From Methanospirillum hungatei JF-1 (GTDB lineage Archaea > Halobacteriota > Methanomicrobia > Methanomicrobiales > Methanospirillaceae): a stretch of DNA of 64,000 bases. The notes beneath the pieces were generated by a model. The model was not told the DNA's origin. It was given only the letters and a program-made list of their open reading frames with translations, and ran no database searches. The first letter of the stretch is position 1. Each line of letters begins with the position of its first letter. The stretch is from positions 2,640,936 through 2,704,935 of the forward strand of contig NC_007796.1 in the NCBI RefSeq assembly GCF_000013445.1, read 5' to 3'. Of the stretch, positions 22,740 to 60,374 are shown piece by piece. The position numbers were made by a program, and so were the translations under genes.

Positions 22740-24413
22740 TTACGGGGTTCTGATGATTCCGGATACACAGCACTCATCCGGCTCTGCATCAGGAATACCG
22801 GACTTTAACCAGCATCGTGCTTTTTCACTTTGAAACCCGGGTTTCACATACGAATATGCCATGCACTTCTCATCTTCCCTGCAGGCGTTCGCACAAGCCT
22901 CGGGATCAGGTGAGGAAAGGTCAAACACGGTATAATCTTCTCCCGGCCGATTGGTGTCTGGTTCCATATCAGTCTTCGACGGAGTCAGGGCGATATCCTC
23001 CGGCCCGATAGGAACCATTTCGGGTATATTCATATCCATAGGGTCCAGGGTCTGAATTGCAGCAATAAAAGGCGTTGCAATCATCTGGATGACCGCAGGA
23101 GAGAATGCTGCCCGTGAACAACTGCATTTCGCTTTTCCAACAACCGGTGAATCATGAGGATCACTCTCCCCGTCACGGTCGAGATCCAGCTGGGTAATGT
23201 ATGCTCCCTCAAAGCACCAATCCTGTTTCTGATGACTTTTTTCAGGACCGACATCCATCCAGTAGGTTGAGCCCCATAATCCGTTTCCGGATGGCTTTGA
23301 GCACTGAACCGCCCCGATGACCGGTGAATCAAGAGGATCGCATCCAGAACATGAGTCAAGATCTATCCCGGTGATATAGGACCCCTGCGGGCACCAGGAA
23401 CCGCTCATACTATGACTAGAAAGGCCTTTCTGCTCAACCGGAACCCATTGACTCTCCGCCCATTTCTCCTGCTCTTTTCCCTCTATCCTGCAGCATCGTG
23501 CCTGGCCTATAAGAGGAGTATCAAAGTCGCTGACGGATTGATCACCATCCAGGTCAAGAGCGGTCAGATAACTCCCGTCCGGGCAGATCTGGACTTTTTC
23601 ATGGCTGTTCTTACCGCCTGTTTCAACCGGAACCCATTCACATAATCTCCACTTTGGAGTGCCGATACCAAAAATCCAGTTGTAGGCATATGAAGTCGGA
23701 CGGTAAACGCTCACCTGATTGTCACCCCATGATGCCACGCCAACCACGTGACCTGCTTTATTGAGAATCGGCCCGCCTGAGTCACCTGGACAGGAATATA
23801 ACCGGTTGTTCTTAAAGCTGATACCGCCCCATCCGCTTTCGTCTACCGGAAGAGCTATCTTCATCTTTCCCTGTCCTGGTAATGCGCACTTGTCTCCAGT
23901 CATTCCAAATCCGACAAGTGTGAGGGTTTCACCGACAAGGGGAATATTCCAGGGATCTTCAACCGGTATGGGGGTTACCAGTACCTGTGAGGATGCTGGG
24001 GAATTGAGTTCAAGAACTCCATAGTCTTCCCGTTGCCATCCCCGATCTTCATACTCCGGAAATATTCTTACTTTTCCGGTGAAGGTAACATTTCTGCGGT
24101 TATTGGGATCTGCTACTGTCCGGACATTCCGGAGGATGAACTGCCCCTGATTCACACAATTACTCTTTCCATTACAGAAGCAATGTGCTGCAGAAAGGAC
24201 GAGATTGTCTGCAATGAGTGTCCCGGTACATCCTCCTGATCCAATAACCTCACCAACTGCTTCGAGTTCTCCATCCTGTACTGCAGTCCCGTGTGAGAGG
24301 GCTGATTGCTTGATCCCGATGGCTGGATCATCTGATGATCCAAATCCAATCAAGAGCATGACCAATACCAGAAGAAAGAGGTATTTTTTTTCGATATGTT
24401 TGCTTTTATTCAT
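22740..24413 (-). CDS. Secreted chymotrypsin-fold serine protease with three repeats and a PAN domain
   Basis: 557 residues. Leader YLFLLVLVMLLIGFG. Protease domain ~40-260 with complete triad: His77 (SAAHC), Asp130 (EDYGVLEL), Ser212 (CPGDSGGP). The residue at the S1 pocket base (chymotrypsin 189) is Tyr206, so it is not trypsin-like in preference. Residues ~265-440 hold three similar ~55-residue units, each W-hydrophobic-V ... SH ... CPxGSYxTxxDLD ... DSPVxGxxxC, with paired Cys and Asp-rich turns. A PAN/apple-like domain ends the protein (EACANACREDEKCMAYSYV). Such architecture is rare in archaea; acquisition from bacteria is likely (inference). Confidence 0.88.
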   Translation of the reverse strand: MNKSKHIEKKYLFLLVLVMLLIGFGSSDDPAIGIKQSALSHGTAVQDGELEAVGEVIGSGGCTGTLIADNLVLSAAHCFCNGKSNCVNQGQFILRNVRTVADPNNRRNVTFTGKVRIFPEYEDRGWQREDYGVLELNSPASSQVLVTPIPVEDPWNIPLVGETLTLVGFGMTGDKCALPGQGKMKIALPVDESGWGGISFKNNRLYSCPGDSGGPILNKAGHVVGVASWGDNQVSVYRPTSYAYNWIFGIGTPKWRLCEWVPVETGGKNSHEKVQICPDGSYLTALDLDGDQSVSDFDTPLIGQARCCRIEGKEQEKWAESQWVPVEQKGLSSHSMSGSWCPQGSYITGIDLDSCSGCDPLDSPVIGAVQCSKPSGNGLWGSTYWMDVGPEKSHQKQDWCFEGAYITQLDLDRDGESDPHDSPVVGKAKCSCSRAAFSPAVIQMIATPFIAAIQTLDPMDMNIPEMVPIGPEDIALTPSKTDMEPDTNRPGEDYTVFDLSSPDPEACANACREDEKCMAYSYVKPGFQSEKARCWLKSGIPDAEPDECCVSGIIRTP

Positions 24414-24784: not shown

Positions 24785-25672
24785 TCACCCGACCATTATC
24801 CATCTGGTCAGCGTACAGGTACAGGGACTGTTGTTCCTCTTAACGGTCAGGGTTATCTGATATGATCCAGGTGCAGGAAACGTATGATCAATCAGTTCGC
24901 CACTTGCAGAGCCCCCATCACCAAAGGTCCAGGCACGGGTATTGGGCTGGGGTGATGAATCATCCTTGAACCGGATAGTGAGCAGCCCTCTGACCTGGGT
25001 GGTAAATGAGACCGTAAATCCTTCTCCTGGTCCACAATTGTAACAATTCTGAACCGGTACCGGGGTCGGAGTTGGCGGGATGGTTGTGGGCTCTGTGGTA
25101 GGTTCTGTTGTCGGTGTACTGGTGGGTTCAGATCCGATGGATCCTGCCCCCTCATATGCAATCAGTTGAGAATGAGTATTATCTATGATACGGATGGCTA
25201 TTGGACCGGAAGGAAGAGGAATTGCCCCTGAAATGAGAGCAGGATCATTGGCAAGGTAATACCCGTCAGCTTTTCTGAATATAATGACCCGATCTCCTGG
25301 TGACCAGGTTGTATCTGATGAGAGATAGGTAGGATCGGTGATGACGACTGAACTCTCTTCACTGGTATCTACCATGAACCTGACTTCATATTGGGCATCC
25401 CGACTCTGGTTCTCGTAATACATGGTATCCCCATTCCGGTGGACTACCTCAATTCCATCAATATTTGGAGCAATAGGTATAATTTTTGCGCCGGTCACCA
25501 CATAGGCGGTTTTCTCAACTGACGAGACCAGACCGAAGATGAGAGCATAGATGATTCCGGCCATAGCCACTACCAGGAAGATGATCAAGATGAGTCCTAC
25601 CAACGTGCTGACCGCTTTGTTATTCAAATCATGGGGAGTCATATTAGTCCCTGAATTATTCATCCCTGCCAT
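24785..25672 (-). CDS. Pilin-leader surface protein with C-terminal PKD domain
   Basis: 295 residues. Archaeal class III (Pilin_N) leader: NNKAVSTLVGLILIIFLVVA, so it is probably cleaved by PibD-type peptidase before the hydrophobic stretch. A ~120-residue beta domain, then a Thr/Pro-rich linker (PTSTPTTEPTTEPTTIP), then a PKD domain (RAWTFGDGGSASGELIDHTF) with Cys pairs. A surface or pilus-associated adhesin. A relic of its 3' end is found at ~33.1 kb. Confidence 0.85.
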   Translation of the reverse strand: MAGMNNSGTNMTPHDLNNKAVSTLVGLILIIFLVVAMAGIIYALIFGLVSSVEKTAYVVTGAKIIPIAPNIDGIEVVHRNGDTMYYENQSRDAQYEVRFMVDTSEESSVVITDPTYLSSDTTWSPGDRVIIFRKADGYYLANDPALISGAIPLPSGPIAIRIIDNTHSQLIAYEGAGSIGSEPTSTPTTEPTTEPTTIPPTPTPVPVQNCYNCGPGEGFTVSFTTQVRGLLTIRFKDDSSPQPNTRAWTFGDGGSASGELIDHTFPAPGSYQITLTVKRNNSPCTCTLTRWIMVG

Positions 25673-33150: not shown

Positions 33151-33480
33151 ATTATGGATCCATGAGATTTTCATGTGTAGAATTGGCAAAACCCACTCTC
33201 CATCTTCATGTAGTGAGGTTTGATGATGCATTATAACTAGAAACCAGATGGGTGATCCTCTGACTAGGGTAGTAGATTATAGCATAAACATGATTTTTTT
33301 CTATGGGAGCAAAAAATTCACGGATATTGCATCAATACCAGAATAACAGAGGATTATGCATAATTAAATTGACGTTTTAACACGATTAAATTCTCCATTC
33401 AATTGAGATTAAAAGAGTTTAAAAATTTTTTCCCCGAAAAGTATTAATTGGTTTAGAGTTTTGTAACAGCCTTAAAAAAA

Positions 33481-36400
33481 TTAAAACGTTCCATACCAAT
33501 CCAAATACCGATCACATTTACTTCCGGGGTTGAATTGAATTCTCCATCTCCATGGTCCATTGAAATCCGGATTCGGATCATCATAAAGATAGGAACGGAT
33601 TGTTTGCCACGGAGGAGAATTATTTCCGATATATGCATCATATCTTTGGGCTGCATTTGCAATGACATTCGGAATAATGTATGAGCCATCTGATGCAGTA
33701 TACGTATACCAGAGGAATTCATTTGGTGTTGCATTGCGGTAAAATTCTATTCTTATGTTCTCAATTGGCAATCCAGTTGTTTCATTTCTCACAACACCCT
33801 TCAGGAAGTAACATTTAGGTCCATAATATGCAACAATGGTGTGATCTTCCTGAACATTTGTAAACACATATGGATTAATTGCACTTGAAAATCTCCCATC
33901 AATCAATAATTCAGCAAATAAATAGGTTTCTTTTCCGATTATAAAGGATGGCTCCATTGAATAACTCTGTGAATTGCCACACTGAACCGAAGTAACCCCT
34001 TCCGGATCGATCATGCCGGTAATTGGTATTGGTGTGTAACTACCCACATCAAGATATACTGCCGAAGCTGTGATATTATACGGCCCTCTTGGCACAAACG
34101 ATGCACTGATATTATGTGGTTCAGTCACATTCGTAAACGTATAACTTCTGATTGGACCCATCGAAGTCCCGTCAACCCGAACGTCAGAAATATTCCAACA
34201 CGTGAGATTGGTAATGCTAAAAGATTGATCATATCCACAATTGACCATGACTATCCCATTTGGTGTAATATTCCCACCAAAACCGGCAGTCGCATTTATT
34301 GGAAATGTCTTCAGAGCAAACACTGCATGAATTGATTGATCTGAAGTTACATTCGTAAATGTATAGGTAAAGGGACTTACCTGAGGACCAAGGTGCTGTG
34401 TCCCGTTGATGATTACATCGGTGATATTAAAGCAGAATGCCGCTGTAATAGTATAACTCTGATCTGAACCACAATCAACCACAGTTATTCCCAGTGGATC
34501 AATCGTTCCTCCCGCATCTGCAGATGAGGCGATCTGGAACTGTTTTAGATCAAAGTATGCATCAATGGTCTGATCGTACTGCACATTGATGAAGGTGTAA
34601 CTCTCAACCGGTCCAAGATGCAGTGCATTCGGTTGATTCTCATCAATTACCACATCTCTGATCGTATGACAGAGATCCGGCGTAATATTGAACTGCTGGC
34701 TCCATTCACAGGGGACGGTGACATTCCCTGACGGATTGATAAACCCACCCTCATGAGCTGTGGCAACAATAGTTAGCGGCAGGCATCCAATCGGCAGATA
34801 CATGGAATTCGTAGATTCACTTCCACATGAGTTCTTAATGGTAAGGATTACCTGGTAGTCATCACGGATGTAATAGGTATGGACCGGGTGCTGCTCTTTT
34901 GAGGAGGATCCATCGCCAAAGTACCAGTTCCACTCTACTATGTCATATCCGGTGGAGAGATCGGTAAACTGAACAGTCAGGGGATCCTCATTAACAATGG
35001 TATAATTGAATAATGCTTCAACCGGCGGGCAATAGACATGTATCTGTTCACTATGGGTTTCATTCCCTCCACACGGGCTGGTTGCATGGAGTGTTGCTGA
35101 ATAATTCCCACCTGTTTTGTAGGTATAGACTGGGTTTCTGAATGAAGAGACGCCTCCATCACCAAAGGTCCATCCCCAGGATTGCGGCGTTCCAATTGTC
35201 CTGTCAGTAAAGTATACAGTCAGGGGAGCGGTGCCATTTACAGGTTCCATTCTATAGGTGAAATTGGCATATACCGGGCAACAAACGAGTTTGTCAAATG
35301 TGTCCCTAGCTCCGCATTCGTTTGTTACTGTGAGTGAAACCAGATACTCTCCACATCCAGCTGCGTAGGTATGGTCAGGGGGATTCTGTCCAGTGTAATA
35401 AGTTCCATCACCAAAACTCCAGTTCCAATGGGTGATCGTTTCCGGTTTTTGGGATGAATCGCGAATTCTGACAGTAAAGGGTTCACCGGAGATTATCTCG
35501 GTTGAGAAGTTCGCAACTGGCGGGGTGCAGAAGCAGGGGGTGGATATGCTCTCCCGATAGCTGTTCTTCGCTCCGCATGTGGTAGTAACAGAGAGATTTA
35601 CCTGCCATGTTCCGTTTCTTATGTATGTATGCTGTGGGTTTTGAAGGATAGATGAATTTCCATCTCCAAACTCCCATAACCAGTCAGAGATATCATCTCC
35701 GGATGTCTTTGTGGTGTCAGAGAAGTCCACCGTCAATCCATCAGGATTACAGGCATAGGTAAATCCGGGAACCGGCATCTCACAACAGGGGACGGTGACG
35801 AATCTGGTCCATCTGGCTGATGAGTTACATGTTGTAAAGACCGTGAGATTTACCGGATATGTGCCGGGATTATCATATTTATGGTTCGGGTTTTGTAATC
35901 CGGAGGTGTTATCCGGCCTTAGATCTCCAAACTCCCAATACCAGGCATTAATTCCACCGCCAATCGCACGGGAGAGGTCGGTGAAGCTGACGTTTGTCGG
36001 CCCGGTACAGGTGTAGTCAAAGTCAGGTTTTGGTGGTGGACAGCCACAGATCGCGTCCTGAATGACATCGTCTGATGAACCACAATCGGTTGTGACCTTC
36101 AGGCGGACGGTGAACTGACCACAGGCTGCATACCGGTGAGTCGGGGTCTGCTCTGTTGAATTCGTGCCATCTCCGAACTCCCATAATACTGCAGTGATTG
36201 GCCGTTCAGAAACGGATTCATTGATGAACCTGAATTCCTGTGGATCGGTTGTTGGTTCAATACGGAATCTCGCTTCTGGGAGTGGACAACCACAGATAGC
36301 ATCCTGAATGACATCGTCTATGGAGCCACAGTCGGTCGTAACCTTCAGGCGGACCGTGAAATGGCTACAGGTTGAATACCGGTGAGTCGGGTTTTCCTCG

Positions 36401-38952
36401 GTTGAGTTTGTTCCATCACCAAACTCCCAAAATAATCCGGTGATCGGACGGGTAGATAACGACTCATTGATGAAACGGAACTCTAATGGATCAGCAGTGG
36501 TCTCGATCCTGAATTGTGCTTCAGGAGCTGGACAACCACAGATAGCATCCTGAATGACATCGTCTGAGGAGCCACAGTCGGTCGTAACCTTCAGGCGGAT
36601 CGTGAAATGGCCACAGGTTGCATACCGGTGAGTCGGGGTCTGCTCTGTTGAATTTGTGCCATCTCCGAATTCCCAGAATAATCCAGTGATTGGATGTTCA
36701 GAAACGGATTCATTGATGAACCTGAATTCCTGAGGATCGGTTGTTGGTTCAATGCGGAATCTCGCTTCTGGGAGTGGACAACCACATACAGCCGGCTTTA
36801 CTACCTCATCCCAAGAACCACAATCGGTCATGACTTTGAGACGTACTGGATGCTGACCGCAGGTTGCATACTCCTTATCAGGCGGGTTCTTTCCTGAATA
36901 AGATGTTCCGTCACCAAAGTCCCAGAGATAGTTCGCAGCTAAACCAGTTGGTATGATACTGGTATCAGTAAAACGGAACGTTCGGGGATTAGCAATTACA
37001 TTGGTGATTGTGAAATTTGCGTCAGGTTGTGGGCAGGTGAGAGAGATATCCCTGATCGTATCACCAAAGCAACCATCCTGATCCCATACCCGCAGCTTTA
37101 CCGTATAATTGCCATATGTTGCGTATTCGTGGGTCACGTTTTGGGTGATATATCGGGTGCCATCTCCCATATCCCACTGCCATCGCTGAATGGTTCCCTC
37201 GGGTTTGGAGGTATCTGTATACTTCACAGTTTTTCCGGTTGGTACATAAACAAAACTGGCGTTCGGTATTCCAGGGATACAGATGTCTCCACCGCAGGTA
37301 GCTTTGCGGATGGTGTCATCCCAGCATCCCTGCGTATCAAATACCGTCAGGAGTATGGAATACTCTCCGCATCGTGGATATGAATAGGTAAAGGTCCCAG
37401 GAGGGCTTGTATTATTGAAAACTACTCCATCTCCCATATCCCAGATCCATTGCACGAGACCTGTTGATGACTTTGAATGGGTGGAATTGTCGGTTATGGA
37501 GATAACAAAAGGAGTTCCAATCTGTTCTTTTGCTACTGAAAAGTTGGCAATCGGGTTTTCATAGCAGATACACGGTAAGGACACTGTTTTTGTTGCGGAG
37601 TAACTGCCACAATCCTTCGTATTTACCGTCAGAGTTGCGCTGTAATCTTTACATTGATTATAATGAGAATAACCATGTTGGATTGAGCCAGTCCAATCAA
37701 GATGAGAAATTTGAGTCCTATTTCCATCGCCAAAATCCCAGATGAGTACATAGGGTTTGCCAAACAGATAGGTCCCAGCGTTCCATAAGAAATTCACATC
37801 CCAAGTATCTGGAGATCTCCCTTCATATATCCAATTAAAATCTGCATTCGCTGAACAATTAATGGAAACCTGTTTGGTTGTGCTGCAATATATACGGTTT
37901 CCACACTGGTTTTTCCCAATGGTCAGAGTGACTCTGTACGACGGAATCGTTAAAGATGAATATTCATGAATTGGGTTTGATTCAGATTTTGTGTGGCCAT
38001 CGCCAAAGTTCCATCGCCATTCATCAGCTCCTTCTGACCGATCTCTAAAACTAATATTGAACCGATTATACGGATCACTTTCATAAATGAAATTCGCATA
38101 ACAAGTATCAGAACAGCCATACACTGTTACTGATTGCGAAGATGATTTTGAGCAGACAGGATAGTAACTATCCTTCTGAATAACTGTGTGAATAACCTGA
38201 TATGTCCTGTCTGTTGTCAGATTCGGGAATGTAATCGACGCATCTCTTCCATTCATTGTTTTGGAAAAACCTTGCCCCAATATTGTGTATGAATGTGTGC
38301 CATTTCCCAAACTCGAAAGAAGGTAGGTAGGAGGATTGGATCCTGTATGAGTGATAGAAAAGAGAGCATCTGATTCGGTGAGCGTACAATTCACATCTGG
38401 ATACGGAGTAGGAGTCGGCGTTGTTGGAATGGGGAGAATAGTTGTTGCACCAGGTTTCCCGAATTCACGATAGAGATGTTCTCCACCTGACTTATTGAGA
38501 AGGATTTGATATGACAGATTTGTTCCGCTTGCAGGAACACGTAGACTATATCCAAACCCAAGATCTGAACCTGATGTGCTCCAATTTGTAGCATTTCCAT
38601 CAGGTCTGATTAAGTGTATCGTATGCTGATCATATTCTTTTTTAAAGGTTCCATTAAAAACACGTATTCTGATCGAGTCTGGTGAGAGGTTATCTCCCCC
38701 GCTATGAGTAAAAAAGGCATATCCAGAGCTGTTCGTATATTCAATCTCGGTATGAGGGAGGGTTGTCTTCGGATACTGACCGGTTGAGTAAGAGAGTATT
38801 ATACCGGTTGCAATAACAAGAACCACAATCAGAGATAACGACGATACTATCTCGGATAGAGCATCTTCACAATACCTTTTCTTTACATGGCCTGATCGTT
38901 TCCGAAAAATAATATCTCCCCCCATCTTCTCATCCTGAAAATATAAATTCAT
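33481..38952 (-). CDS. Giant Cys-rich PKD surface protein with pilin-like leader
   Basis: 1823 residues. N-terminus: CEDALSEIVSSLSLIVVL, an archaeal pilin-type leader/anchor. I count about 13 PKD domains (W-x-FGDG core), most ending DCGS ... CGCP with paired Cys. Domains 6-8 are ~82-residue near-identical repeats. Then four ~70-residue InlB-like beta repeats (for example GGNITPNGIVMVNCG, SYTFTNVTE) and a carboxypeptidase-regulatory/Cna-B-like domain (LKGVVRNETTGLPIENIRI). No C-terminal anchor. Third gene of the operon; ATGA overlap with the gene before it. Likely an adhesin or cell-sheath component (inference). Confidence 0.88.
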   Translation of the reverse strand: MNLYFQDEKMGGDIIFRKRSGHVKKRYCEDALSEIVSSLSLIVVLVIATGIILSYSTGQYPKTTLPHTEIEYTNSSGYAFFTHSGGDNLSPDSIRIRVFNGTFKKEYDQHTIHLIRPDGNATNWSTSGSDLGFGYSLRVPASGTNLSYQILLNKSGGEHLYREFGKPGATTILPIPTTPTPTPYPDVNCTLTESDALFSITHTGSNPPTYLLSSLGNGTHSYTILGQGFSKTMNGRDASITFPNLTTDRTYQVIHTVIQKDSYYPVCSKSSSQSVTVYGCSDTCYANFIYESDPYNRFNISFRDRSEGADEWRWNFGDGHTKSESNPIHEYSSLTIPSYRVTLTIGKNQCGNRIYCSTTKQVSINCSANADFNWIYEGRSPDTWDVNFLWNAGTYLFGKPYVLIWDFGDGNRTQISHLDWTGSIQHGYSHYNQCKDYSATLTVNTKDCGSYSATKTVSLPCICYENPIANFSVAKEQIGTPFVISITDNSTHSKSSTGLVQWIWDMGDGVVFNNTSPPGTFTYSYPRCGEYSILLTVFDTQGCWDDTIRKATCGGDICIPGIPNASFVYVPTGKTVKYTDTSKPEGTIQRWQWDMGDGTRYITQNVTHEYATYGNYTVKLRVWDQDGCFGDTIRDISLTCPQPDANFTITNVIANPRTFRFTDTSIIPTGLAANYLWDFGDGTSYSGKNPPDKEYATCGQHPVRLKVMTDCGSWDEVVKPAVCGCPLPEARFRIEPTTDPQEFRFINESVSEHPITGLFWEFGDGTNSTEQTPTHRYATCGHFTIRLKVTTDCGSSDDVIQDAICGCPAPEAQFRIETTADPLEFRFINESLSTRPITGLFWEFGDGTNSTEENPTHRYSTCSHFTVRLKVTTDCGSIDDVIQDAICGCPLPEARFRIEPTTDPQEFRFINESVSERPITAVLWEFGDGTNSTEQTPTHRYAACGQFTVRLKVTTDCGSSDDVIQDAICGCPPPKPDFDYTCTGPTNVSFTDLSRAIGGGINAWYWEFGDLRPDNTSGLQNPNHKYDNPGTYPVNLTVFTTCNSSARWTRFVTVPCCEMPVPGFTYACNPDGLTVDFSDTTKTSGDDISDWLWEFGDGNSSILQNPQHTYIRNGTWQVNLSVTTTCGAKNSYRESISTPCFCTPPVANFSTEIISGEPFTVRIRDSSQKPETITHWNWSFGDGTYYTGQNPPDHTYAAGCGEYLVSLTVTNECGARDTFDKLVCCPVYANFTYRMEPVNGTAPLTVYFTDRTIGTPQSWGWTFGDGGVSSFRNPVYTYKTGGNYSATLHATSPCGGNETHSEQIHVYCPPVEALFNYTIVNEDPLTVQFTDLSTGYDIVEWNWYFGDGSSSKEQHPVHTYYIRDDYQVILTIKNSCGSESTNSMYLPIGCLPLTIVATAHEGGFINPSGNVTVPCEWSQQFNITPDLCHTIRDVVIDENQPNALHLGPVESYTFINVQYDQTIDAYFDLKQFQIASSADAGGTIDPLGITVVDCGSDQSYTITAAFCFNITDVIINGTQHLGPQVSPFTYTFTNVTSDQSIHAVFALKTFPINATAGFGGNITPNGIVMVNCGYDQSFSITNLTCWNISDVRVDGTSMGPIRSYTFTNVTEPHNISASFVPRGPYNITASAVYLDVGSYTPIPITGMIDPEGVTSVQCGNSQSYSMEPSFIIGKETYLFAELLIDGRFSSAINPYVFTNVQEDHTIVAYYGPKCYFLKGVVRNETTGLPIENIRIEFYRNATPNEFLWYTYTASDGSYIIPNVIANAAQRYDAYIGNNSPPWQTIRSYLYDDPNPDFNGPWRWRIQFNPGSKCDRYLDWYGTF
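36040..36780 (-). repeat. Tandem ~246-bp PKD-coding repeats (3 units)
   Basis: The phrase GGACAACCACAGATAGCATC recurs at ~36283 and ~36529, 246 bases apart, each 82 codons coding one PKD domain (EARFRIEPTTDPQEFRF). High DNA identity implies recent duplication or gene conversion. Confidence 0.8.
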
Positions 38953-41900
38953 GAATAAAGCCGGTATGATGAAGCACGACCGTCAAAGTAGATATTTCCA
39001 GGCTCGAGTGACAACTCCATGATCTTATCCGTAGACGGCATTAATTCCGAAATTTCAAGGTTCTGATAATTCTGGACCGATATTGGGACACCATTCCAGA
39101 CTAAATTAATCCAGGCATTGGTCTGTCGGTATGCAGTAATTTTGAGATTTGAGTGATAATTCTCGAAATCATTTATTTTTATCGCACTGCAAACACCAGT
39201 ATCTACAGGGTTCCCATTAATGGAGAGTATTACACTGGTAACATTGAATGCATTTATCTCTCCCACTATTCTGATATTTGCACGAGTCTGGGCAACTCCA
39301 ATATCCAACCTGACCCGGTCTCCATTATTGAGTGTGTACTCCGTTCCATTCACGGTAATTGTAGATCCGCTTCCTCTGACGAGCCAGCTTGCATACCCTG
39401 GATGCAGGTACCCGTTCCTGTTTGTCAGAAGGCTGACGGTGTTTAATACTCCAGTGGTATTAATGTATTTACTGATGGTGCTTGACTGACCTGTGACATT
39501 TGTTACCTGTAGGGAGACTGAATAATTACCAGGATTTTGGAAGATATGAATTGGGTTTTGTAGAGTGGATGTATATCCGTCATTAAAGTTCCAGGTCCAT
39601 GACGCAGGGCCGCCAGTGGAGGTATCGGTAAAGGAAACCTCGAGAGGTGCAGGCCCTTCCCAGGGATCAGCAGTAAAGTTTGCCAGTATGGGCTCTTCGC
39701 TTCCCACTCTTAACCATACTGGACTTGAATCACGAAATGTTCCTTTTCCTGGGAGAGGATAAGCCCGTGTTACCACAGAGATGGTCTTTCCGGCATATGA
39801 TTCAACATTCACCTGTAGGTTAAACCTATTATTCAGTGCATCAAAGACCATCTGGCCAGCATTCTGATCATCGATCAATAACCATACATCACTCGTATTA
39901 CGGTTTTTTCCACCTACTGTCGCAGTAAAAGTCGTCAATCCCTTTACCACAGAATTATTTACCGGTGATATAATAACAGGCGTAACAGGCTCAAAATCAA
40001 CAGAGACATTTCGATAGGTGGTAACTGTAGCTCCATTCGTGAGAAGATTTCTCGCTACGAGAGTAATGTACTGACCCTCCCATTTCGTATTATTCCAATA
40101 ACCGGTATTATACCCAAGATATCCAATATAAGGAAGATTCACAATCATCCCATCTGGAAGATGGAGTTTACAATTCGTATTTCCATTCGCCTGATTCTCA
40201 TTTGGCCCGACATAATGGACTTCAACATATGAACTCGTATTATAAGGAATAAGCTCATTCTCTCGTGGGTAGTAAAATTCAAAAAATGTCGAATAGTTAC
40301 GGAGATAGAAGAGATCAATATCTGAATATCGATATATCGTGTTATCCGGTACTGAACAATTAAATCCCGTGTTAAATACGGAGCCATTTGCTCTCCAATG
40401 CCACGTGGTTAGCCAATACCATGCAGATCCCGTTTTATAATAAAGGTTGTAAAATCCAGGATGCAAAATAAAACTACTATCCCCCCAATTTTCATATCGA
40501 ATATAGGGGATAAATGCCCCATTACCCGTTCCATCCTGTGGCCATGACTTCATAGGTGTTGAATCAAATGATGTTGTATAATCAAATGGCCAATTTTTCG
40601 GATAATTACCCCGTGATCCCGGATAGCTGGACCCATATCTCCATCGTGACGGAATCTGTATCTCAGAAACTCTCCATTGTGCATTTCCAAAATGAACCTC
40701 ATTGTATTGCCGTTGTGTGGAGATTACCAGGGCCGATGAGTACGTTTCTGCCCCTGAACCATAGGAATACGTTACTTTCCAGTTAGCAGGTAACACTTCA
40801 CGTATTCTGAACGTTCCATAGGTCACATCAGGAAGATTAAATGTATAATCTCCATTTATATCTGTAGAATTTGACTGCCGATCTACCCAATTTCCTGCCA
40901 CCCGCTCTTGTAGATAAACCTGCCAGTTCGAAAGCCCCTGTTCTTCAGGATCCCGGACACCGTTCAAATTCTTATCATTCCAGAGATACCCACTGATACT
41001 TGCAGGGTTTGTGACATTCACCGTTTTTACCGTGCTATACGGATTACCACACTCGTTCTTAACCTGAAGTGTCACATAATACGTCCCAATCTTGGAATAG
41101 GTATGGTTTGGCGGGTTTCTGGAGGGGGGGCTGGTCGTATAATAACTGGTTCCATCTCCAAAGAACCAAAGCCAGCTCATGATCTTATCCATTGGTGTTG
41201 AGTTGTCCGTGAACTTCACCTCAAGAGGACTCATTCCGGACGAAGGAGTGAGATTAAAATCTGCGGTCAGGTTCGGGCAGTCAAAGGCAATACGCCGCCA
41301 TATCTGTGCAGTATTACCACAACTATTCTTTACAATCAGACCAACGTTGTAATTCTCTCTTCCGGCATAGAGGTGGTAGGGATGCTGCTCTTTTGATGTC
41401 GTCCCGTCACCAAAGAACCAGGTCCAGTCTACAATCTCACCACCATAGGAGAGATCCCTGAATGAGACATTGAACGGATCCTCTGAGATGATGGTATAAC
41501 TAAAGTCTGCAACGACTTCCGGACATCCAAAGGTTAAGATTTTACTATGTGTTTCATTCCCGCCACAGGGACTGGTTGCATGGAGAGTGACGGTGTAATT
41601 CCCTCCTTCATTGTAGATATGTACCGGGTTTTGGAGATATGACGTTTTCCCGTCTCCAAAGTCCCAGTGCCATGCATTCGGCTCTCCCTCTGTCAGATCA
41701 GTGAAATAGGCCGTTACCGGAGCATCTCCGTCAGGGGGATCCAGCTGGTAGGTAAAGTTTGCAAATACCGGGCAGCATACGAGCTGATCCACGTCATCGT
41801 ACTGACCACAGTCATTCGTTACCCGGAGATTTACCAGATACTCACCACAGGAATTATAGGTCTTTTCCGGGGGATTCTGACCGGAGTAAGTTGTACCATC

Positions 41901-44900
41901 ACCAAATGACCAGTTCCATGATGTGATTGAATTGCTGTTCGGAACCGACTGATCGGTAAATCTCATGGTGAAGGGCTTTGAGGAGACCATCTCCTTCGTG
42001 AAGTTAGCAATTGGCGGGGAACAGAGACAGGGGACGGTAATATTATGAATCCATGAGTTTTGAGCACCACATGTCGTCGTTATGGTGAGGTTAACCAGGT
42101 AGGTTCCTGGCTGGTTGTACCGATAGACGGGGTTCTTGTCTGACGATATGCCCGCATTATCACCAAAGTCCCATCTCCAACGGGTTATTGCATCTCCGAA
42201 TACCTTCGAGGTATCATTGAACTGGATGGTATTCCCATCCTCAAGACAGGTGTAGGTAAAGTCAGGAACTGGCATCTGGCAGCAGGGGACGGTTACCTCT
42301 CGTGTCCACCGGGCTGATGAATTGCAGGTGGTGAATACCGTTAAATTGACCGGATAGGTCCCCGGATTGTCATACTCATGCGTTGGGTTTTGTAGTCCGG
42401 ATATATTGTCTTGCCTCAAATCTCCAAACTCCCAGTACCAAGCCCTAATTCCATTGCCCATTCCTCTGGATAGGTCGGTAAAGTTGACAGTTCGTTCTCC
42501 AATGCATTTGTAATCAAAGTCAGGAACCGGGGGCGGACATCCACAGACGATATCCTGTATGGTGTCATTACTACTTCCACAATCAGCGGTCACCTTCAGT
42601 CGGACTGTATATTGGCTGCAACTTGGGTAGGTGTGGGTCGGGTTCTGCTCTGTTGAGGTTGTACCATCTCCAAACTCCCACAACCACGATAGATTCACAT
42701 GAGGAACATGGGTGGAACGATCTATGAACACAAACTCCTGAGGATTGGCCGAAGTAGTATACTCAAAGGCTGCTTTCGGGGACGGACAGCCGCATATGAC
42801 ATTCTGAATCGTCTCATTACTACTCCCGCAATCAGCCGTCACCTTCAGTCGAACTGTATATTGGCTGCAACTTGGGTATATGTGAGTGGGGTTCTGCTCC
42901 GTTGAGGTTGTACCATCTCCAAACTCCCACAGCCACGATAGATTCACAGAAGGATCATGGGTGGAACGATCTATGAACACAAATTCCTGAGGATTTGCCG
43001 AAGTAGTATACTCAAAGGCTGCTTTCGGGGACGGACAGCCGCATATGACATTCTGAATCGTCTCATTACTACTCCCGCAATCAGCCGTCACCTTCAGTCG
43101 AACTGTATATTGGCTGCAACTTGGGAAGGTGTGGGTGGGGTTCTGCTCTGTTGAGTTTGTGCCATCTCCAAACTCCCACAACCATGATATATTCACAAAC
43201 GGTTCATGGGTAGAACGATCGGTGAACACAAACTGCTGGGGATTGGTTGTATTATTATACTCAAAGGCTGCTTTCGGGGACGGACAGCCAGTTGTGATAT
43301 CCTGGAAGGTGTGATCCCATGATCCACAATTCGTTGTTACTCGTAACCTGACCGTGTAGGTTCCTGGACTAGTATACCGATGAGTAACGCTGGAGCCTGT
43401 CGAAGTAACACCATCACCAAAGTCCCATTCCCAGTCTGTGATTGTGACTGAAGGATCATGGGTTGATGTACTGGTGAACCTGAACTCACGGGGGTTGGAC
43501 ATAGATTCGACGGTGAATTGTGCAATCGGTTTTGGGCAATTACAAGAGACTTCCTTAATGACGTCATCCCAGCAGCCGATATCATCCCATACCCTGAGTT
43601 TTACCGGGAATGAGCCACATTTGTCATACTCAATCCAGAATGTTCCTGGTGGAGAGGTATTTATCGCAGATGTCCCATCACCAAAGTCCCATTCCCAACG
43701 GGTCAGCGTGTTATTGTTTGAATAAGACGAGTCAATGAAGTTGAACCGTTTCGGGTTATTTGGAGCGGCAGTTGCAGAAAATTCAGCCCGTATATCGTCG
43801 GGTTCACAATTACCTCCACCGCACGAGATGGTCCGGGTAGTTTCAGCCCAGCATCCCATAGCATCATGGACGATGAGTTTGATGACATAACTTCCACATG
43901 ATGAATAGGTATGTGTAAATATGAAAGGATCTGGTTTTGTCGTGGTGTTGAAATTTATGGGTGTCGTGCCATCTCCAAAGTCATATGTCCATTGAATAAT
44001 GTCCGATGGTGTAGAGGTATCATTGATGATCGTGGTCGTATTATTTGACTTTATTTCTGTGGCAGTAAATACCGGAGTTGGGTTTTCTTCTTCTGTGCAG
44101 ATACAGGGGAGATTAACTGTTTTTGTACAGGTGTAGTAGATACCACCATGGAGATCGATGACATCCATTTTTACACTGTAATCGCGACACTCGGTGTAAG
44201 AATGAGAGATCCGATTAGAATCTGGCCATTTAGTTATTCCTGCAAATCCGTCTTTTGAATAGGTTTCTGAGTTACTGCCATCACCAAAGTCAAACTTTAC
44301 TTTCCAGTCCTTGTTATCCAGACCTTTACATACATCTGGATGATTCCATGTAAATTCAACATTCCATGGGTTTCGTGTGGATGGATCATAGTTATCTATG
44401 AAACACCCGCACACAATCGATTCTGTTGTGACCTTCTGTGTCACCGAACAGGTGAAATCCTGGTCACATCGATTTATCTTTTTCGTTAATGTTACCGAAT
44501 GAATTGATTTATTATCCAGGTAGGTGTGCTCTACTTTTGTATTATTTATTATCGTTTTATTTTGCCCATCTCCATATTCCCAAGAAAAAAACCCCTTATC
44601 TGGGCCATCAGCGGTAAATTGAACAGTTTTCCCATCAACAAGATAACTAAACCCGGCAACACAGGGGGCATGTGAACAGGGAGGGACAGTTACATACTGA
44701 ATAGAAGAATCACTGCAGATGGGGGTTGAATTATACACCGTATGCTGAATGAAATAACCCTGACTGTTTGTATCGTAGGGAATAGGGAGGGTATAATCAA
44801 AACTCCATTCTTTAGTTGAAATAGATACTGGTAGAAAATTTTTACCTGATATTGTCCATTTGTGAGTTAGATTATCTGCATGAGCGGATGCAATACAGGT

Positions 44901-45479
44901 AAGATTATTTCGATAATCGCCGACAGTATCTGCAGTAAACGCTGCAGATGGGGTATCATTACAAAAGCCAGGAATGGGAACAATGGTTGGAACTGCCGTA
45001 ACGTTTGGGATTTCAATCGGTCTGCTGTGTCCAGTTCCGAACTCTTTTATCAGGTAATTCCCTGTAGATACATTATGGTGTATCTGATATCCATCATTAA
45101 TTTCAGTAATATTTACAACCGATGAATAATTCCATTCCAGGTCAGGATGATCTTTCCACCTGACTTCATAATCCTTTTCTCCTGACGTGACATTCCACTT
45201 AACAAGATAGACATTATTCAGATCTATTGGGTTTCCTTTCTCATCTGTAAATGTGGTTGCGTAAAACCTCAGTGAATCGCCACCACCATGGTAAAAAGAT
45301 GCATTTGCACCTGATGTATCTTCATCTTTGGGTATCATCTGCACGGATACTTTCGGGATATCCTCCGGTGGCGGGCCTGATGTCAACATCACTGACACGA
45401 TGGATATACCTATGATAACAAGACTGATGAGGAGGATCGCTGCAACGACTTCCGAGACAGCTCTATCTTTAGAATTCAT
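38949..45479 (-). CDS. Giant Cys-rich PKD surface protein with pilin-like leader and SdrD-like domain
   Basis: Start set at MNSKDRAVSEVVAAILLIS (45479), 4 bases after the previous stop; a longer frame begins at 45506. About 2176 residues. The leader is a pilin type (DRAVSEVVAAILLISLVIIG). About 14 PKD domains follow, then an SdrD-B-like domain (ISGYLWNDKNLNGVRDPEE), a ~350-residue beta-rich region with WRYGSSYPGSRGNYP, one more PKD, and a final unfamiliar domain (NRNGYLHPGYASWLVRG). PKD 9-13 match PKD 9-13 of the downstream gene in order, so the two genes are paralogues. Confidence 0.87.
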   Translation of the reverse strand: MNSKDRAVSEVVAAILLISLVIIGISIVSVMLTSGPPPEDIPKVSVQMIPKDEDTSGANASFYHGGGDSLRFYATTFTDEKGNPIDLNNVYLVKWNVTSGEKDYEVRWKDHPDLEWNYSSVVNITEINDGYQIHHNVSTGNYLIKEFGTGHSRPIEIPNVTAVPTIVPIPGFCNDTPSAAFTADTVGDYRNNLTCIASAHADNLTHKWTISGKNFLPVSISTKEWSFDYTLPIPYDTNSQGYFIQHTVYNSTPICSDSSIQYVTVPPCSHAPCVAGFSYLVDGKTVQFTADGPDKGFFSWEYGDGQNKTIINNTKVEHTYLDNKSIHSVTLTKKINRCDQDFTCSVTQKVTTESIVCGCFIDNYDPSTRNPWNVEFTWNHPDVCKGLDNKDWKVKFDFGDGSNSETYSKDGFAGITKWPDSNRISHSYTECRDYSVKMDVIDLHGGIYYTCTKTVNLPCICTEEENPTPVFTATEIKSNNTTTIINDTSTPSDIIQWTYDFGDGTTPINFNTTTKPDPFIFTHTYSSCGSYVIKLIVHDAMGCWAETTRTISCGGGNCEPDDIRAEFSATAAPNNPKRFNFIDSSYSNNNTLTRWEWDFGDGTSAINTSPPGTFWIEYDKCGSFPVKLRVWDDIGCWDDVIKEVSCNCPKPIAQFTVESMSNPREFRFTSTSTHDPSVTITDWEWDFGDGVTSTGSSVTHRYTSPGTYTVRLRVTTNCGSWDHTFQDITTGCPSPKAAFEYNNTTNPQQFVFTDRSTHEPFVNISWLWEFGDGTNSTEQNPTHTFPSCSQYTVRLKVTADCGSSNETIQNVICGCPSPKAAFEYTTSANPQEFVFIDRSTHDPSVNLSWLWEFGDGTTSTEQNPTHIYPSCSQYTVRLKVTADCGSSNETIQNVICGCPSPKAAFEYTTSANPQEFVFIDRSTHVPHVNLSWLWEFGDGTTSTEQNPTHTYPSCSQYTVRLKVTADCGSSNDTIQDIVCGCPPPVPDFDYKCIGERTVNFTDLSRGMGNGIRAWYWEFGDLRQDNISGLQNPTHEYDNPGTYPVNLTVFTTCNSSARWTREVTVPCCQMPVPDFTYTCLEDGNTIQFNDTSKVFGDAITRWRWDFGDNAGISSDKNPVYRYNQPGTYLVNLTITTTCGAQNSWIHNITVPCLCSPPIANFTKEMVSSKPFTMRFTDQSVPNSNSITSWNWSFGDGTTYSGQNPPEKTYNSCGEYLVNLRVTNDCGQYDDVDQLVCCPVFANFTYQLDPPDGDAPVTAYFTDLTEGEPNAWHWDFGDGKTSYLQNPVHIYNEGGNYTVTLHATSPCGGNETHSKILTFGCPEVVADFSYTIISEDPFNVSFRDLSYGGEIVDWTWFFGDGTTSKEQHPYHLYAGRENYNVGLIVKNSCGNTAQIWRRIAFDCPNLTADFNLTPSSGMSPLEVKFTDNSTPMDKIMSWLWFFGDGTSYYTTSPPSRNPPNHTYSKIGTYYVTLQVKNECGNPYSTVKTVNVTNPASISGYLWNDKNLNGVRDPEEQGLSNWQVYLQERVAGNWVDRQSNSTDINGDYTFNLPDVTYGTFRIREVLPANWKVTYSYGSGAETYSSALVISTQRQYNEVHFGNAQWRVSEIQIPSRWRYGSSYPGSRGNYPKNWPFDYTTSFDSTPMKSWPQDGTGNGAFIPYIRYENWGDSSFILHPGFYNLYYKTGSAWYWLTTWHWRANGSVFNTGFNCSVPDNTIYRYSDIDLFYLRNYSTFFEFYYPRENELIPYNTSSYVEVHYVGPNENQANGNTNCKLHLPDGMIVNLPYIGYLGYNTGYWNNTKWEGQYITLVARNLLTNGATVTTYRNVSVDFEPVTPVIISPVNNSVVKGLTTFTATVGGKNRNTSDVWLLIDDQNAGQMVFDALNNRFNLQVNVESYAGKTISVVTRAYPLPGKGTFRDSSPVWLRVGSEEPILANFTADPWEGPAPLEVSFTDTSTGGPASWTWNFNDGYTSTLQNPIHIFQNPGNYSVSLQVTNVTGQSSTISKYINTTGVLNTVSLLTNRNGYLHPGYASWLVRGSGSTITVNGTEYTLNNGDRVRLDIGVAQTRANIRIVGEINAFNVTSVILSINGNPVDTGVCSAIKINDFENYHSNLKITAYRQTNAWINLVWNGVPISVQNYQNLEISELMPSTDKIMELSLEPGNIYFDGRASSYRLYS
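42530..43275 (-). repeat. Tandem 249-bp PKD-coding repeats (3 units)
   Basis: TTCGGGGACGGACAGCC occurs at 42775, 43024 and 43273, exactly 249 bases apart (83 codons, one PKD each starting KAAFEY). Two of the three units differ by only a few bases. Confidence 0.9.
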
Positions 45480-45483
45480 TGTT

Positions 45484-47001
45484 TTACCCATATACCCGAG
45501 AGTCAATTTTCATTTCGACCAATGCATGGTTGAGAGTAAGGTGAAGATTGTAATTATTTTTAGGTGTCACATTAACATTAACGGTTTTTCCATGCTGTCC
45601 TGATTCTACAGTTAATCCATCACTTTTTAGTAAACTATCGATAGATTTTTTATAGTATCTCGCTTCATCTTCATCAGAAGCGGTTATCTGTATCAAAAAC
45701 CCTTTTGCATTTTCAATAATCCCTTCTTTCAACTTATACCAGTTATCCCCACTGTTGATGATATTGTGTCTTACTCCTTTTAGAGTCGAGGTAATCTGAA
45801 CCTCATCATGACCGCCGACCAATGCATCTCCAAAGAGAGAGATGAGGTTGATATGAACATTACAGATATTTCCTGCAGGAGATACCTGGATCCAGTTGGA
45901 AGATATTTTTGGTTGGATGATTCCATTCTGCTTAAGTTGCACCTCTCCACATTGGTAAATATATTCCTGATTGATCCAATAGGGGTTTTGTGATGAATAA
46001 TTAAATGTCCCAATAGGTGTTGTGTCCATAGTGATATTTGCCGTAATATAATCAAGATCACCAGTGCTCGAACTATTACCATAATAGGTGATATACTCGA
46101 ATAGATCACTTGGATTTTTTGGAATTAGGGGAGGGGAACCATCACTTCGGGTATATACATAACTTAAATTTGATCTGATCAACTGATCGTTCGATAGTCC
46201 GTATGCCTCTTCCATGAGATTAACTCGGATAGTTTCATTCCAGGTATATGGTGACACAAGCCCCCGATAGATGACCTCATCTTCAATGGTTTTCATTCCA
46301 TTCTTTATCACAGAGAGCGTTACTTCTTTTACCGGATAATTGAGAATTTCAAGGTGTGAGACCTCCCTGGTTTCAGGATGTTCTGTCCAGTTTAATACAT
46401 GATACAGATCCTCCTGGCGGAGTGTGGCGTTCTTTACTTCAAGGACTGCCACCCAGTCAACAAGTTCCCATGGATTAATCAATCTACTTGAGGTGATATT
46501 TGTTGGATAAATTGTAAGAGTATGGGGATCAAAGGGAGGCATTTGATTTGGATAAATATTTGTTGAGTAATTTACAAAAATCGCAGAATAATCCTCTTTA
46601 ATATCACCTGCATCTGAACCGGTAATATTTATGAAGGTGCCATTGATTATTGTCAAACTCAAATTAGGCATTTGAGTTATTGCAACTTTTCCGCTGGATG
46701 CCACCGGTTGCATCACTGGGAAAATGCTGAATGCCCCTCCTGATGTTTGTCCTCCAGTTCCAAGAGAAAGTTGCTGATTGAATGATACACCCTCTTGGTT
46801 GTTATACCATAGCGAATCGATATTCATCTTGAAATCGGTAAAAAATTTCTCGACGTTTTGCATATGCTGGATCTCTGCATCCCTCCCCTGTGAAGGAACC
46901 ACATAGGTCATATAGAGAGATCCAAGAATAACAATGATAGCGATAATTAAGATAAACCCGATGACCTCTGATAACCCGTCATCCGTAACCCGACCAGACA
47001 T
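45484..47001 (-). CDS. Pilin-leader surface protein, first gene of the PKD operon
   Basis: 505 residues. Leader DDGLSEVIGFILIIAIIVILG. The rest is beta-rich, Asn/Thr-rich, with potential N-glycosylation sites (NGTFINITGS, NATLRQ) and no PKD. It resembles large pilin-fold proteins that carry an archaeal Pilin_N segment. Its ATG follows AGGAG lying inside a 14-bp palindrome (47003-47016). Promoter and 5' codons are repeated in two further copies (48446, 49880). Probably the filament or anchor subunit to which the PKD proteins relate; inference. Confidence 0.8.
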   Translation of the reverse strand: MSGRVTDDGLSEVIGFILIIAIIVILGSLYMTYVVPSQGRDAEIQHMQNVEKFFTDFKMNIDSLWYNNQEGVSFNQQLSLGTGGQTSGGAFSIFPVMQPVASSGKVAITQMPNLSLTIINGTFINITGSDAGDIKEDYSAIFVNYSTNIYPNQMPPFDPHTLTIYPTNITSSRLINPWELVDWVAVLEVKNATLRQEDLYHVLNWTEHPETREVSHLEILNYPVKEVTLSVIKNGMKTIEDEVIYRGLVSPYTWNETIRVNLMEEAYGLSNDQLIRSNLSYVYTRSDGSPPLIPKNPSDLFEYITYYGNSSSTGDLDYITANITMDTTPIGTFNYSSQNPYWINQEYIYQCGEVQLKQNGIIQPKISSNWIQVSPAGNICNVHINLISLFGDALVGGHDEVQITSTLKGVRHNIINSGDNWYKLKEGIIENAKGFLIQITASDEDEARYYKKSIDSLLKSDGLTVESGQHGKTVNVNVTPKNNYNLHLTLNHALVEMKIDSRVYG

Positions 47002-53992: not shown

Positions 53993-56521
53993 ATGGACAG
54001 GTCCCCCACCATCCACACAATACTCCGGCTTTTCGCACTGCTGGTCATGGCTCTTCTTCTTTCAAAAAGCATTGGAGCCGCATCCAATCAGGACAACGGG
54101 CAGTTCATCCTGGTCCTGCATTCCTATAACCCAACTCTGACCTGGACGGCAAATATATCCCAGGGTATCCTGGCAGGAATGGGGCCATTGCCGGCAAATA
54201 CCTCCATCTCATTTGAATACCTGAACTGGAAGAACTACCCAACTGAAGAGAACCTGAACCTTGTCGAAGACCTTCTACGATACCGATACAAAAACCTACC
54301 GGTGGATCTCCTCATAACCACCGACGATGCCGCACTCATCTTTGGGCTGAAGCACCGTACCGAAATCTTTTCAGATGCACCGATAATCTTCACCGCGCTG
54401 AATGGATTTGATGAGATACGGCCAGACACATACCCAAAAACTACCGGTGTTATCGAAGCAATAAACCCGGAAGATACCATTGACAGCATTTTCCGCCTTT
54501 TTCCAGATACAAAGCATATCCTGGTACTCTGTGAATATACAGAATCCGGAAAAGGAATTGCAGAGATCATCAGGAAAGCCAGCCGAAACTATCAGAATCG
54601 GGCAGTGTTCACCTACATCGGTGATATCACAACCGGGGAAGTATATGAGGAGATCCGAAACCAGACACCAGGAACGGCCATCCTGATTGGTTCATGGTCG
54701 GTGGATAAAACCGGTGCCATCGTAGACATCGGTCAGTTTGCAGAGAAAGTAGCAGCAATAAGCCCGGTTCCGGTTTTCAACCTCTATGATTTTAATACCG
54801 GACGGGGAACCGTTGGAGGGAGTATCCTTTCCGGATACAGGCAGGGATATATTGCCGGTCAGATGGCCTCGGAGATACTGTCAGGAAAAGAGATATCTCA
54901 AATTCCGATTGTGGGAACTGATGCAACCCAGTTGATATTTGATTATGCCGTTCTGGAACGATTTAAGGTGCCAAAGGAGCGTATCCCTCCGGGAAGCATC
55001 CTCCTGCATACGCCACCGGCATTCATTGAGCAGTATTACGGGTTTATCATGGCTGCCCTGCTTGTTATCATAATCCTGGCTGCTGCTCTTATTACCCTCC
55101 TTTCCATTATGCTTGTTCGGAGAAGAACTGAAAAGTTAATGATGACCCTTCTTGATGCACTTCCCGGATATGCTTTTTTGAAAGACAGGAATGGAGTATA
55201 CCAGTATGCAAACCAGACCTTGTGTGATACGATAGGTCTGAGGGCAGATGAGATAAAGGGAAAGACCGATTATGACCTGTTCCCTCATGAAATCGCAACC
55301 AGATACCAGGAGCAGGATGACACTGTCATTGCATCAGGAAAGCCGCTCTTTATCCCGGAAGAGACTATCCCTGAAAAATCTGGAACAAAGATACCGCTCA
55401 CCGTGAGAAAAGTGCCTATTACCGATGCAAAAGGATCTGTCACCGGAGTAATCGGGCTTGCATTTGACATCACCGAGCAGAAGGCAGCACGGGAAGAACT
55501 TCTGGAGAGCCACGAGAAATACTATAACCTCTTTGAACTTGGAAAAGAGGCAATTTTCCTCATTGATCAAAGCACCGGAGAGATACTAGAAGCAAACCTC
55601 TTTGCCGTCGAGATGTATGGATACCAGAAGAGTGAACTCATCGGGATGAATATCACCTCATTATCTGCAGAGCCAGATACTACCAGAATACTTTCATCAG
55701 AAGTCCGGACCGGAACATTTGCCATTCCCCTGCGATATCATCAGAAAAAATCAGGCGTACGGTTTCCAGTGGAGATTATCGGCCGGGTCTTTGATTGGAA
55801 AGGAAAGATATGGATTGTTGCTGCCATTCGGGATATATCAGAACGGCTGCGGACTGAGAATGCAATCAGAAAAGCCACGGAGAAACTCAATCTCTTCAAT
55901 TATCTCACCCGCACCACCATGAACAACCAGCTCTTCATTCTTCGGGGGTATCTTGACTTTGCTGCTGATATCGTCCGGGATTCTGATGCTGAAAAATACC
56001 TTGAACGGAGCCGGAGTGCTGTCCGATCCATCGACCGTCTCGTCCTCTTCATGAAAAATTACCAGGATATGGGATTAAAACCGGCAGTCTGGCAGAATGT
56101 TGAGGAAGTATTCATCTATGCCATATCTCACCTGAGTATGGGAGGAATTACCAGGGAGATTTTCGTGAAAGGGCTCTTCATCTATGCTGATCCATTCCTG
56201 GAAAAGGTGTTTCTGCACCTTGTCGAAAACTCCATCACACATGGTGAACGGGTAACAATAATCGGCATCAGGACAGAACAGGACGGAGAGGATCTGCTGC
56301 TCATATACGAAGATAACGGGATTGGGGTTCCTTCAGACTACAAGGAGCAGATCTTATCCCTGAACCTTGAAGGAAAAGCAGGAATAGGGCTCATACTGGT
56401 CAGGGAGATCCTCGCAATAACCGGAATTTCCATAACCGAAACAGGAGAGTATGGAACCGGTGCCAGGTTTGTGATGCGGGTTCCCAAAGGAAATTACCGG
56501 TTTGAGAGCGGCATTACATGA
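53993..56521 (+). CDS. Membrane sensor kinase-like protein without acceptor His
   Basis: 842 residues. Signal/anchor at the N-terminus, an ABC-type periplasmic-binding-like (ABC_sub_bind) domain (~37-340), membrane segment ~350-375, two PAS domains (~385-495 and ~507-620), then a HisKA-like helix and an HATPase. In related archaeal kinases the acceptor box reads TRHDxxNQ; here it is TRTTMNNQ (Thr641-Thr642), so the phospho-accepting His is missing. The N-box HLVENS (Asn746) and DNGIGVP (Asp774) and GKAGIGL are intact. Overlaps the DP2 3' end by 8 bases, convergently. Confidence 0.88.
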
Positions 56522-59500: not shown

Positions 59501-60374
59501 CCACCTCCTTTTCTTCTGATGATGAGCTTCCGGCAGTGGCCTGGATCATCTCTTCAAGCCAGTCCCAGCCGTCCATCTTCATTTTTCTGACGTTTTTTAG
59601 GACTTTTGGTGCTTTTAAGGCAAGACCTTCGGCGATGACAAGGGCCATTCCTCCCCGGACGGTGTTTGTCTCAACCCGTTCCAGATTCCGATGACCTGAT
59701 ACCTCTTCCTTTTCAGTCGGTTCACCATCAATACAGACTGGACAGTTACTGATGATAAGCCGGATCTCGCGTTCGGATGGGAGATACTGCAGACTCATGA
59801 TGGAGTTATACTGCCTGATCTCCTCGATATACCGTTCAATCTCCTCTTCCCGTGGCATGTATCGTGACATGCCCAGAATTCTCCGGACATAATCACCGAC
59901 CAGGACGGAAAGAGCCTGTGCCGTTCCTCCGGCACTCCGGATGGGACCTGCATAGTAAATAGCAAGGTATTCAGATCCGTCATCATTTTTCTTCACCGCA
60001 ACCTTGGCAATTCCTTCTATGGGTGCAGAAACGACCCCTTCGGTGAGGAGAGCCATGGCAGTCCGGATTGCATGATCCAGGATCTCTTCTTTTGTCGTCT
60101 CTCCAAACTTCTTTTCTGCAAAATAATCGCCAATATGAAGGGACGCCTCTTCTCGGGACATGACCGCTTCAAGTTCACGGATCATCTGGGCCACACCGGG
60201 GATACCCACCTGGGCCTCAACCCGGTCTGCCAGATCATTTGCAATTGGGATCTCGACAACCGTCTCAGGGTCGAGTCCAGTCTTCCTGGCGGTCTTCGCA
60301 ACCTCCATCGCCTGTGCAAGACCTGCATTCAGCCGGTCATAATATTCCTGCATCCGGGGTGATATGTCTGCCAT
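56514..60374 (-). CDS. polC: DNA polymerase D large subunit DP2 with intein
   Basis: 1286 residues, ~1121 after removal of the intein. The exteins carry two cysteine-rich zinc sites ([33 protein letters not shown]) and the catalytic NCDGDED, split by the intein (RRN, then CDGDED). A further zinc ribbon, [19 protein letters not shown], lies near the C-terminus. Polymerising subunit of PolD with DP1 (18192-19616); synthesises most of the chromosome. Start at [15 protein letters not shown] is usual for the family. Confidence 0.95.
57264..57758 (-). other. Mini-intein in DP2, C-terminal Gln
   Basis: 165 residues. Block [12 protein letters not shown], block [11 protein letters not shown], block [14 protein letters not shown], ending GNGIFTGQ followed by Cys+1 (CDGDED). 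No endonuclease domain. The usual His-Asn ends are Gly-Gln. The Pyrococcus abyssi PolII intein also ends in Gln and splices, which makes activity plausible. Confidence 0.9.

Follow-up and report, generated by a model that had tools for sequence, protein, structure and literature searches.

Proteins that carry a large module on a pilin N-terminus have been described in bacteria. The modular type IV pilins PilB and PilC of Streptococcus sanguinis are built in this way and are thought to sit at the pilus tip (PMC8179133). The KilLMN tip complexes of the Myxococcus Kil/Tad pilus are encoded by a minor-pilin cluster in which one protein is small or plain and the others are large and modular, with interchangeable tips (PMC12075869). 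In euryarchaeal PilB3/PilB4-type systems, the minor pilin arCOG02911 has a FlaFind-type leader, is variable in length (~250-550 aa), is prone to duplication and is encoded with PilB/TadC (PMC4858521). PKD domains are found on the archaeal cell surface in surface and S-layer proteins (e.g. PDB 1l0q). The genome paper of Methanospirillum hungatei counts 31 genes for PKD proteins and ~11 paralogous pilins, which are not linked to each other in the available part of that paper (PMC4704411). A Methylococcus secretome study considered as a precedent for archaeal PKD type IV pilins was off topic, as far as its available part goes. Here, we describe an operon of M. hungatei JF1 that we consider fairly likely to encode a minor or modular pilin set of an archaeal type IV filament displaying two long adhesins.

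The window analyzed is a 64-kb stretch (C1:2640936-2704935) of the single-contig genome of 3,544,738 bp (Table 1). A preliminary description of this DNA had reported three adjacent genes of 505, ~2176 and 1823 aa with a combined coding length of 13.5 kb. This layout is borne out: all three ORFs lie on the minus strand and are open throughout, their junctions overlap or abut, and the operon spans 13,521 bp. Genes 2 and 3 share 4 nt (ATGA). The frame of gene 2 opens at TTG 45506, and the distance from gene 1 depends on the start chosen, being an 8-nt overlap for ATG 45491, which gives 2180 aa, or a 4-nt gap for ATG 45479. The junctions are consistent with the proposed translational coupling of the trio; their geometry fits, and coupling itself would be a reading of that geometry. 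Upstream of gene 1, at a distance of ~400 bp, is a gene for an Rpn-family nuclease. Elsewhere in the window, a 557-aa protein (22740-24413, minus strand) combines a trypsin domain with a C-terminal PAN domain, which is unusual for an archaeon. The large subunit DP2 of DNA polymerase II (56514-60374, minus strand) matches its catalytic domain in two stretches and has a weak intein-splicing match below the cut-off, pointing to a probable intein.

Table 1. Features of the operon, with positions in the window (slashes mark predicted cleavage sites)
Feature	Position	Strand	Description
Gene 1, 505-aa lead pilin-like protein	45484..47001	-	Leader MSGRVTDDG/LSEV, long N-terminal helix, beta-rich head
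Gene 1 long alpha-1 helix, residues 8-66	46804..46980	-	AlphaFold2, block pLDDT 85-94 over most
Gene 2, 2176-aa giant pilin-leader protein	38949..45479	-	Length counted from ATG 45479
Pilin_N match, gene 2 residues 6-72	45264..45464	-	42.7 bits
PKD shaft, gene 2 ~residues 260-1400	41280..44702	-	PKD_4; homologous to gene 3 shaft
Tip A, gene 2 residues 1490-2176	38952..41012	-	SdrD_B, further beta domains, last PKD, C-terminal domain
Gene 3, 1823-aa giant pilin-leader protein	33481..38952	-	Leader ...CEDA/LSEI
Pilin_N match, gene 3 residues 30-98	38659..38865	-	28.7 bits
PKD shaft, gene 3 ~residues 264-1394	34771..38163	-	PKD_4; homologous to gene 2 shaft
Tip B, gene 3 residues 1395-1823	33484..34770	-	~70-residue repeats and CarboxypepD_reg-like end (below cut-off)
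T7 run	33474..33480	-	Directly 3' of gene 3; plausible archaeal terminator, presumed function

Archaeal prepilins have G, A or S at position -1 and a charged residue at -2 of the cleavage site (PMC4371748). Genes 1, 2 and 3 all follow this rule directly before a hydrophobic domain, with predicted sites DDG/LSEV, DRA/VSEV and EDA/LSEI, respectively. The pattern is rare by chance, occurring in 6 of 469 background ORFs taken from the minus strand of the same loci. The Pfam family Pilin_N (PF07790; cut-off 25.2 bits) recognizes both giants, and gene 1 scores 20.5 bits. The helix of gene 2 stops at PPP, 28 residues past the cleavage site; the leader of gene 3 is 31 residues long when counted from the first ATG; and the leader of gene 1 is invariant across its own family at L10, S11, E12, V13, G15 and F16. 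The claims that each gene begins with a pilin-type leader and that the giants lack a C-terminal anchor are thus confirmed, the leader being the sole hydrophobic segment detected in each of the three proteins. A prepilin peptidase of family A24 with an Arc_PepC_II domain is encoded in the genome, and from their sequences all three proteins would be exported by Sec and cleaved by PibD. Other PKD proteins are encoded nearby. A 295-aa protein ~8 kb from the operon (24785-25672, minus strand) has both a Pilin_N match of 28.0 bits and a PKD domain, and just beyond the window end is a cluster of three genes for large PKD proteins whose signal peptides look ordinary (L061:774-9924, C1:2705673-2714823).

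By its profile matches and gene order, the operon is a member of a conserved family found across the order Methanomicrobiales, a point absent from the preliminary description. A single-sequence search of genome contigs with gene 1 gave no matches, and its relatives there were found with a family-alignment profile. Relatives of gene 1 occur in 50 of 61 related genomes, and the profile matches 148 of 296 genomes of the phylum, more weakly outside the order. A profile scan of named genomes yielded 80 loci, all in records of Methanomicrobiales or unclassified Euryarchaeota MAGs, and the genera with the operon type include Methanoculleus, Methanoregula, Methanocalculus and Methanogenium. These loci hold 83 copies of gene 1, 76 of which have a same-strand gene directly behind them. 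Among these 76, a pilin-leader protein is encoded downstream in 71 (as the very next gene in 65) and PKD in 45, with leader and PKD within one protein in 32; these counts include some cut contigs and split genes. The helix of the downstream pilins runs 28-29 residues from cleavage site to proline break (interquartile range, n = 88), and position +3 is acidic in 112 of 121. Small and giant subunits therefore share one design. Gene 1 itself has Glu at +3 in 81 of 81 sequences. In most PilA-like pilins of M. hungatei, position +3 is Pro and the helix is longer, that of genes 2 and 3 being ~6-10 residues shorter than in PilA-type pilins of the same genome. The genome holds two pilin classes, a PilA-like class mostly with Pro at +3 (L145-L147, L042 and L059) and the class of the gene-1 operons with Glu at +3 and a shorter helix. 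A second operon of the same type (L039:7941-13112, C1:2973940-2979111) is led by a 596-aa gene-1 paralogue, followed by pilin-leader proteins of 217, 288 and 147 aa and a DUF4114 protein, and contains no PKD. Reduced copies of gene 1 also occur: G001 has a remnant with a 72-aa frame and a stop (C1:2270805-2270951), and G060, from which PilB1331 is also absent, has a short copy with a 105-aa frame (C5:56362-56577).

The AlphaFold2 model of gene 1 (mean pLDDT 71.8) has a 59-residue alpha-1 followed by beta strands. Comparison of the model with the PDB using Foldseek and VIA-align gave no convincing match; Top7-like designs were rejected as fold relatives because their matches were at chance level (Z at most 7.0). 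Gene 1 scores 19.6 bits against DUF7289 (PF23960), under the curated cut-off of 27, and 19 of 30 members of the gene-1 family match DUF7289 at E<=0.01, so distant kinship is likely. Our search found no literature on DUF7289.

Genes 2 and 3 are, by alignment, collinear paralogues that end in two different tips, a relationship absent from the preliminary description. They are 45% identical over 1433 columns, leader included, and differ at their C-termini. Pfam finds PKD_4 in 14 stretches of gene 2 and 12-13 stretches of gene 3, and the modules accompanying Pilin_N in the giants are PKD, SdrD_B and CarboxypepD_reg-like. In another Methanospirillum genome (G007), gene 1 is followed in the same order by giants of 2166 and 1708 aa, with a 230-aa protein encoded between them. 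The shafts are more similar within a genome (52.6% identity for genes 2 and 3, 62.6% for the G007 pair) than between genomes (31-37%), whereas the tips are more similar between genomes, at 40.6% for gene 2 and the 2166-aa giant and 51.5% for gene 3 and the 1708-aa giant, compared to 22-27% for other pairings. Informative sites in the shafts pair the copies within a genome at 163 positions, the presumed orthologues at 7 and the crosswise copies at 4. The simplest reading of these sequences is that both tip types are older than the split of the two species and that gene conversion or repeated duplication subsequently homogenised the shafts. Tip A is shared by other Methanospirillum, M. stamsii among them (44%), and occurs in L083 and L087; M. 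stamsii and L083 also have repeats resembling tip B. The AlphaFold2 model of tip A is an all-beta chain of domains with a mean pLDDT of 84.8. Foldseek matched it to many tandem Ig-like proteins, including the GhpA grappling hook, an RTX adhesin and an archaeal YVTN/PKD S-layer protein; we rejected these matches as a guide to function, as they indicate only stacked Ig-like folds. In three of the PKD domains of gene 2 and in four of those of gene 3 (33481-45479, minus strand), the cysteines follow the regular pattern C-x12-C-x11-C-x-C, which suggests disulfide-locked PKD domains. The G007 counterparts lack this regular 13-12-2 spacing, and it is thus not essential to the type; several relatives are low in cysteine altogether.

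In addition to the archaellum, M. hungatei has three sets of PilB and PilC. A diverged 308-aa paralogue of gene 1 (E 3e-11 to the family model) lies in an operon of this genome with a Pilin_N protein, T2SSF (PilC) and T2SSE (PilB). In 48 genomes that are at least 90% complete, we compared the presence of gene 1 with that of an orthologue of each of the three PilBs, with presence cut-offs chosen after the E-values were seen to be bimodal. Gene 1 and PilB1331 were both present in 36 genomes and both absent from 9, with gene 1 alone in one (G060) and PilB1331 alone in two (Fisher p 3e-7); this test concerns gene 1 and treats genomes that are not independent. Reduced to one row per genus and state, the corresponding counts were 18, 7, 1 and 2 (p 2e-4). 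PilB3465 and PilB352 were rejected as cognate motors, as neither tracked gene 1 (p 0.56 and 1.0, respectively). At one locus (L091) the operon lies ~6 kb from the orthologues of PilB1331 and PilC1333, and at two others (L056 and L057) the gene-1 operon is close to PilB3465-type genes. The correlation with PilB1331 supports a putative pilus function for the operon type of gene 1.

The reading that we favor, a pilus set, draws on the prepilin rule, the conservation of the operon, the co-occurrence with one PilB, the shared helix design and the conserved separate tips. After Sec export and cleavage by PibD, gene 1, a pilin with a long helix, would nucleate or adapt the set, and genes 2 and 3 would be giant modular pilins, each with a pilin N-terminus, ~13-14 disulfide-prone PKD domains and a different tip module. 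Their mature helices would join gene 1 and a filament platform driven, as the co-occurrence suggests, by the PilB encoded at C1:1330877 and the neighbouring PilC. On these shafts, two different binding tips would be presented well away from the pilus body, probably at a pole of the cell, where the tips may adhere to partner cells or surfaces. In the available part of a cryo-ET study, the pili of M. hungatei thread the end plugs (PMC11641113). We can also envisage, tentatively and with considerable doubt, that the giants, larger than any other known pilin, are a matched pair forming a two-pronged pilus tip that reaches past S-layer and sheath with a dedicated PilB-PilC motor, the shafts being alike from working side by side and the tips serving as separate binding heads.

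The preliminary description had suggested that the leaders serve for tethering or for assembly into a filament or the sheath. The first two of these options gain support from the order-wide operon, the paralogue in a PilB-PilC operon and the co-occurrence with one PilB. Tethering could also operate without a filament: the helices of PibD-processed proteins would stay in the membrane and the PKD shafts would protrude through the S-layer, a situation for which the Sulfolobus bindosome proteins are a parallel in principle. A 28-residue helix followed by PPP just spans a membrane, a helix shorter than that of PilA-type pilins also suits a plain tether, and no PilB or PilC genes lie within the 64-kb window. 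PKD domains, like Ig-like folds in general, are roughly 4 nm long, and ~14 of them would exceed 50 nm. In M. hungatei the distance from membrane to sheath is ~25 nm (12 + 9.5 + 4 nm), according to the part of the cryo-ET study available (PMC11641113). PibD in other archaea also processes non-pilus proteins (PMC4371748). Against plain membrane tethers, besides this excess length, stand the tracking of one PilB by the lead gene and its 59-residue alpha-1, and we regard them as an unlikely alternative, albeit the one to be taken most seriously.

A structural role specific to Methanospirillum, in sheath, S-layer or end plug, appears quite improbable. A 2018 study raises the possibility, in its available part, that PKD proteins listed without names in its Table S1 act as plug proteins (PMC6242892). 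The sheath needs DTT to dissolve, and the PKD repeats described here are cysteine-rich. The low cysteine content of several relatives speaks against this role, and the accessible portions of the sheath studies name SH/MspA (Mhun_2271) and S-layer paralogues (PMC6242892, PMC11641113). Searches of the trio by Pfam and hydrophobicity found none of the Methanospirillum S-layer features, namely DUF3821 and a C-terminal PGF-CTERM anchor as in Mhun_2263. The operon type is present in unsheathed Methanomicrobiales; to our knowledge, Methanoculleus, Methanoregula, Methanocalculus and Methanogenium have no such sheath. Because of this distribution, and because the sheath studies name other proteins, the suggested assembly into the sheath is not supported. 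That these are unexpressed or decaying PKD genes with no set function is hardly credible. The genome paper, in its available part, calls significant expression of PKD proteins unknown (PMC4704411), and gene-1 remnants exist in relatives, but 13.5 kb are free of stops, the tips are 41-52% identical between species and the operon is order-wide.

If the operon encodes a pilus set, archaea would share the bacterial trick of mounting adhesive modules on pilins, and the gene set with its likely motor would provide candidates for cell contact by the sheathed, syntrophy-dependent Methanospirillum. We know of no pilin leader on archaeal PKD surface or S-layer proteins, in contrast to which the trio would be anchored through a PibD-type leader. 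No Pfam match to the C-terminal beta-propeller of PilY1/PilC tip adhesins was found in the trio. By description, gene 1 may be related to arCOG02911, which possibly overlaps with DUF7289; however, the main text of the arCOG02911 study mentions neither PKD nor Methanospirillum (PMC4858521), and the DUF7289 score of gene 1 is below cut-off. The likeness to KilLMN is likewise one of description, as that system is bacterial and of the Tad type, and PKD arrays are not mentioned in the text (PMC12075869). Compared to the modular type IV pilins, the trio is archaeal, has no Pfam match to the bacterial N-methylation motif (IPR012902) and includes two paralogous shafts with different tips. Its giants, at 2176 and 1823 aa, are more than twice as large as the bacterial extreme of 860 aa in a survey from 2021 (PMC8179133). 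Modular pilins were thus already known in bacteria, and what appears to be new is the giant archaeal PKD form.
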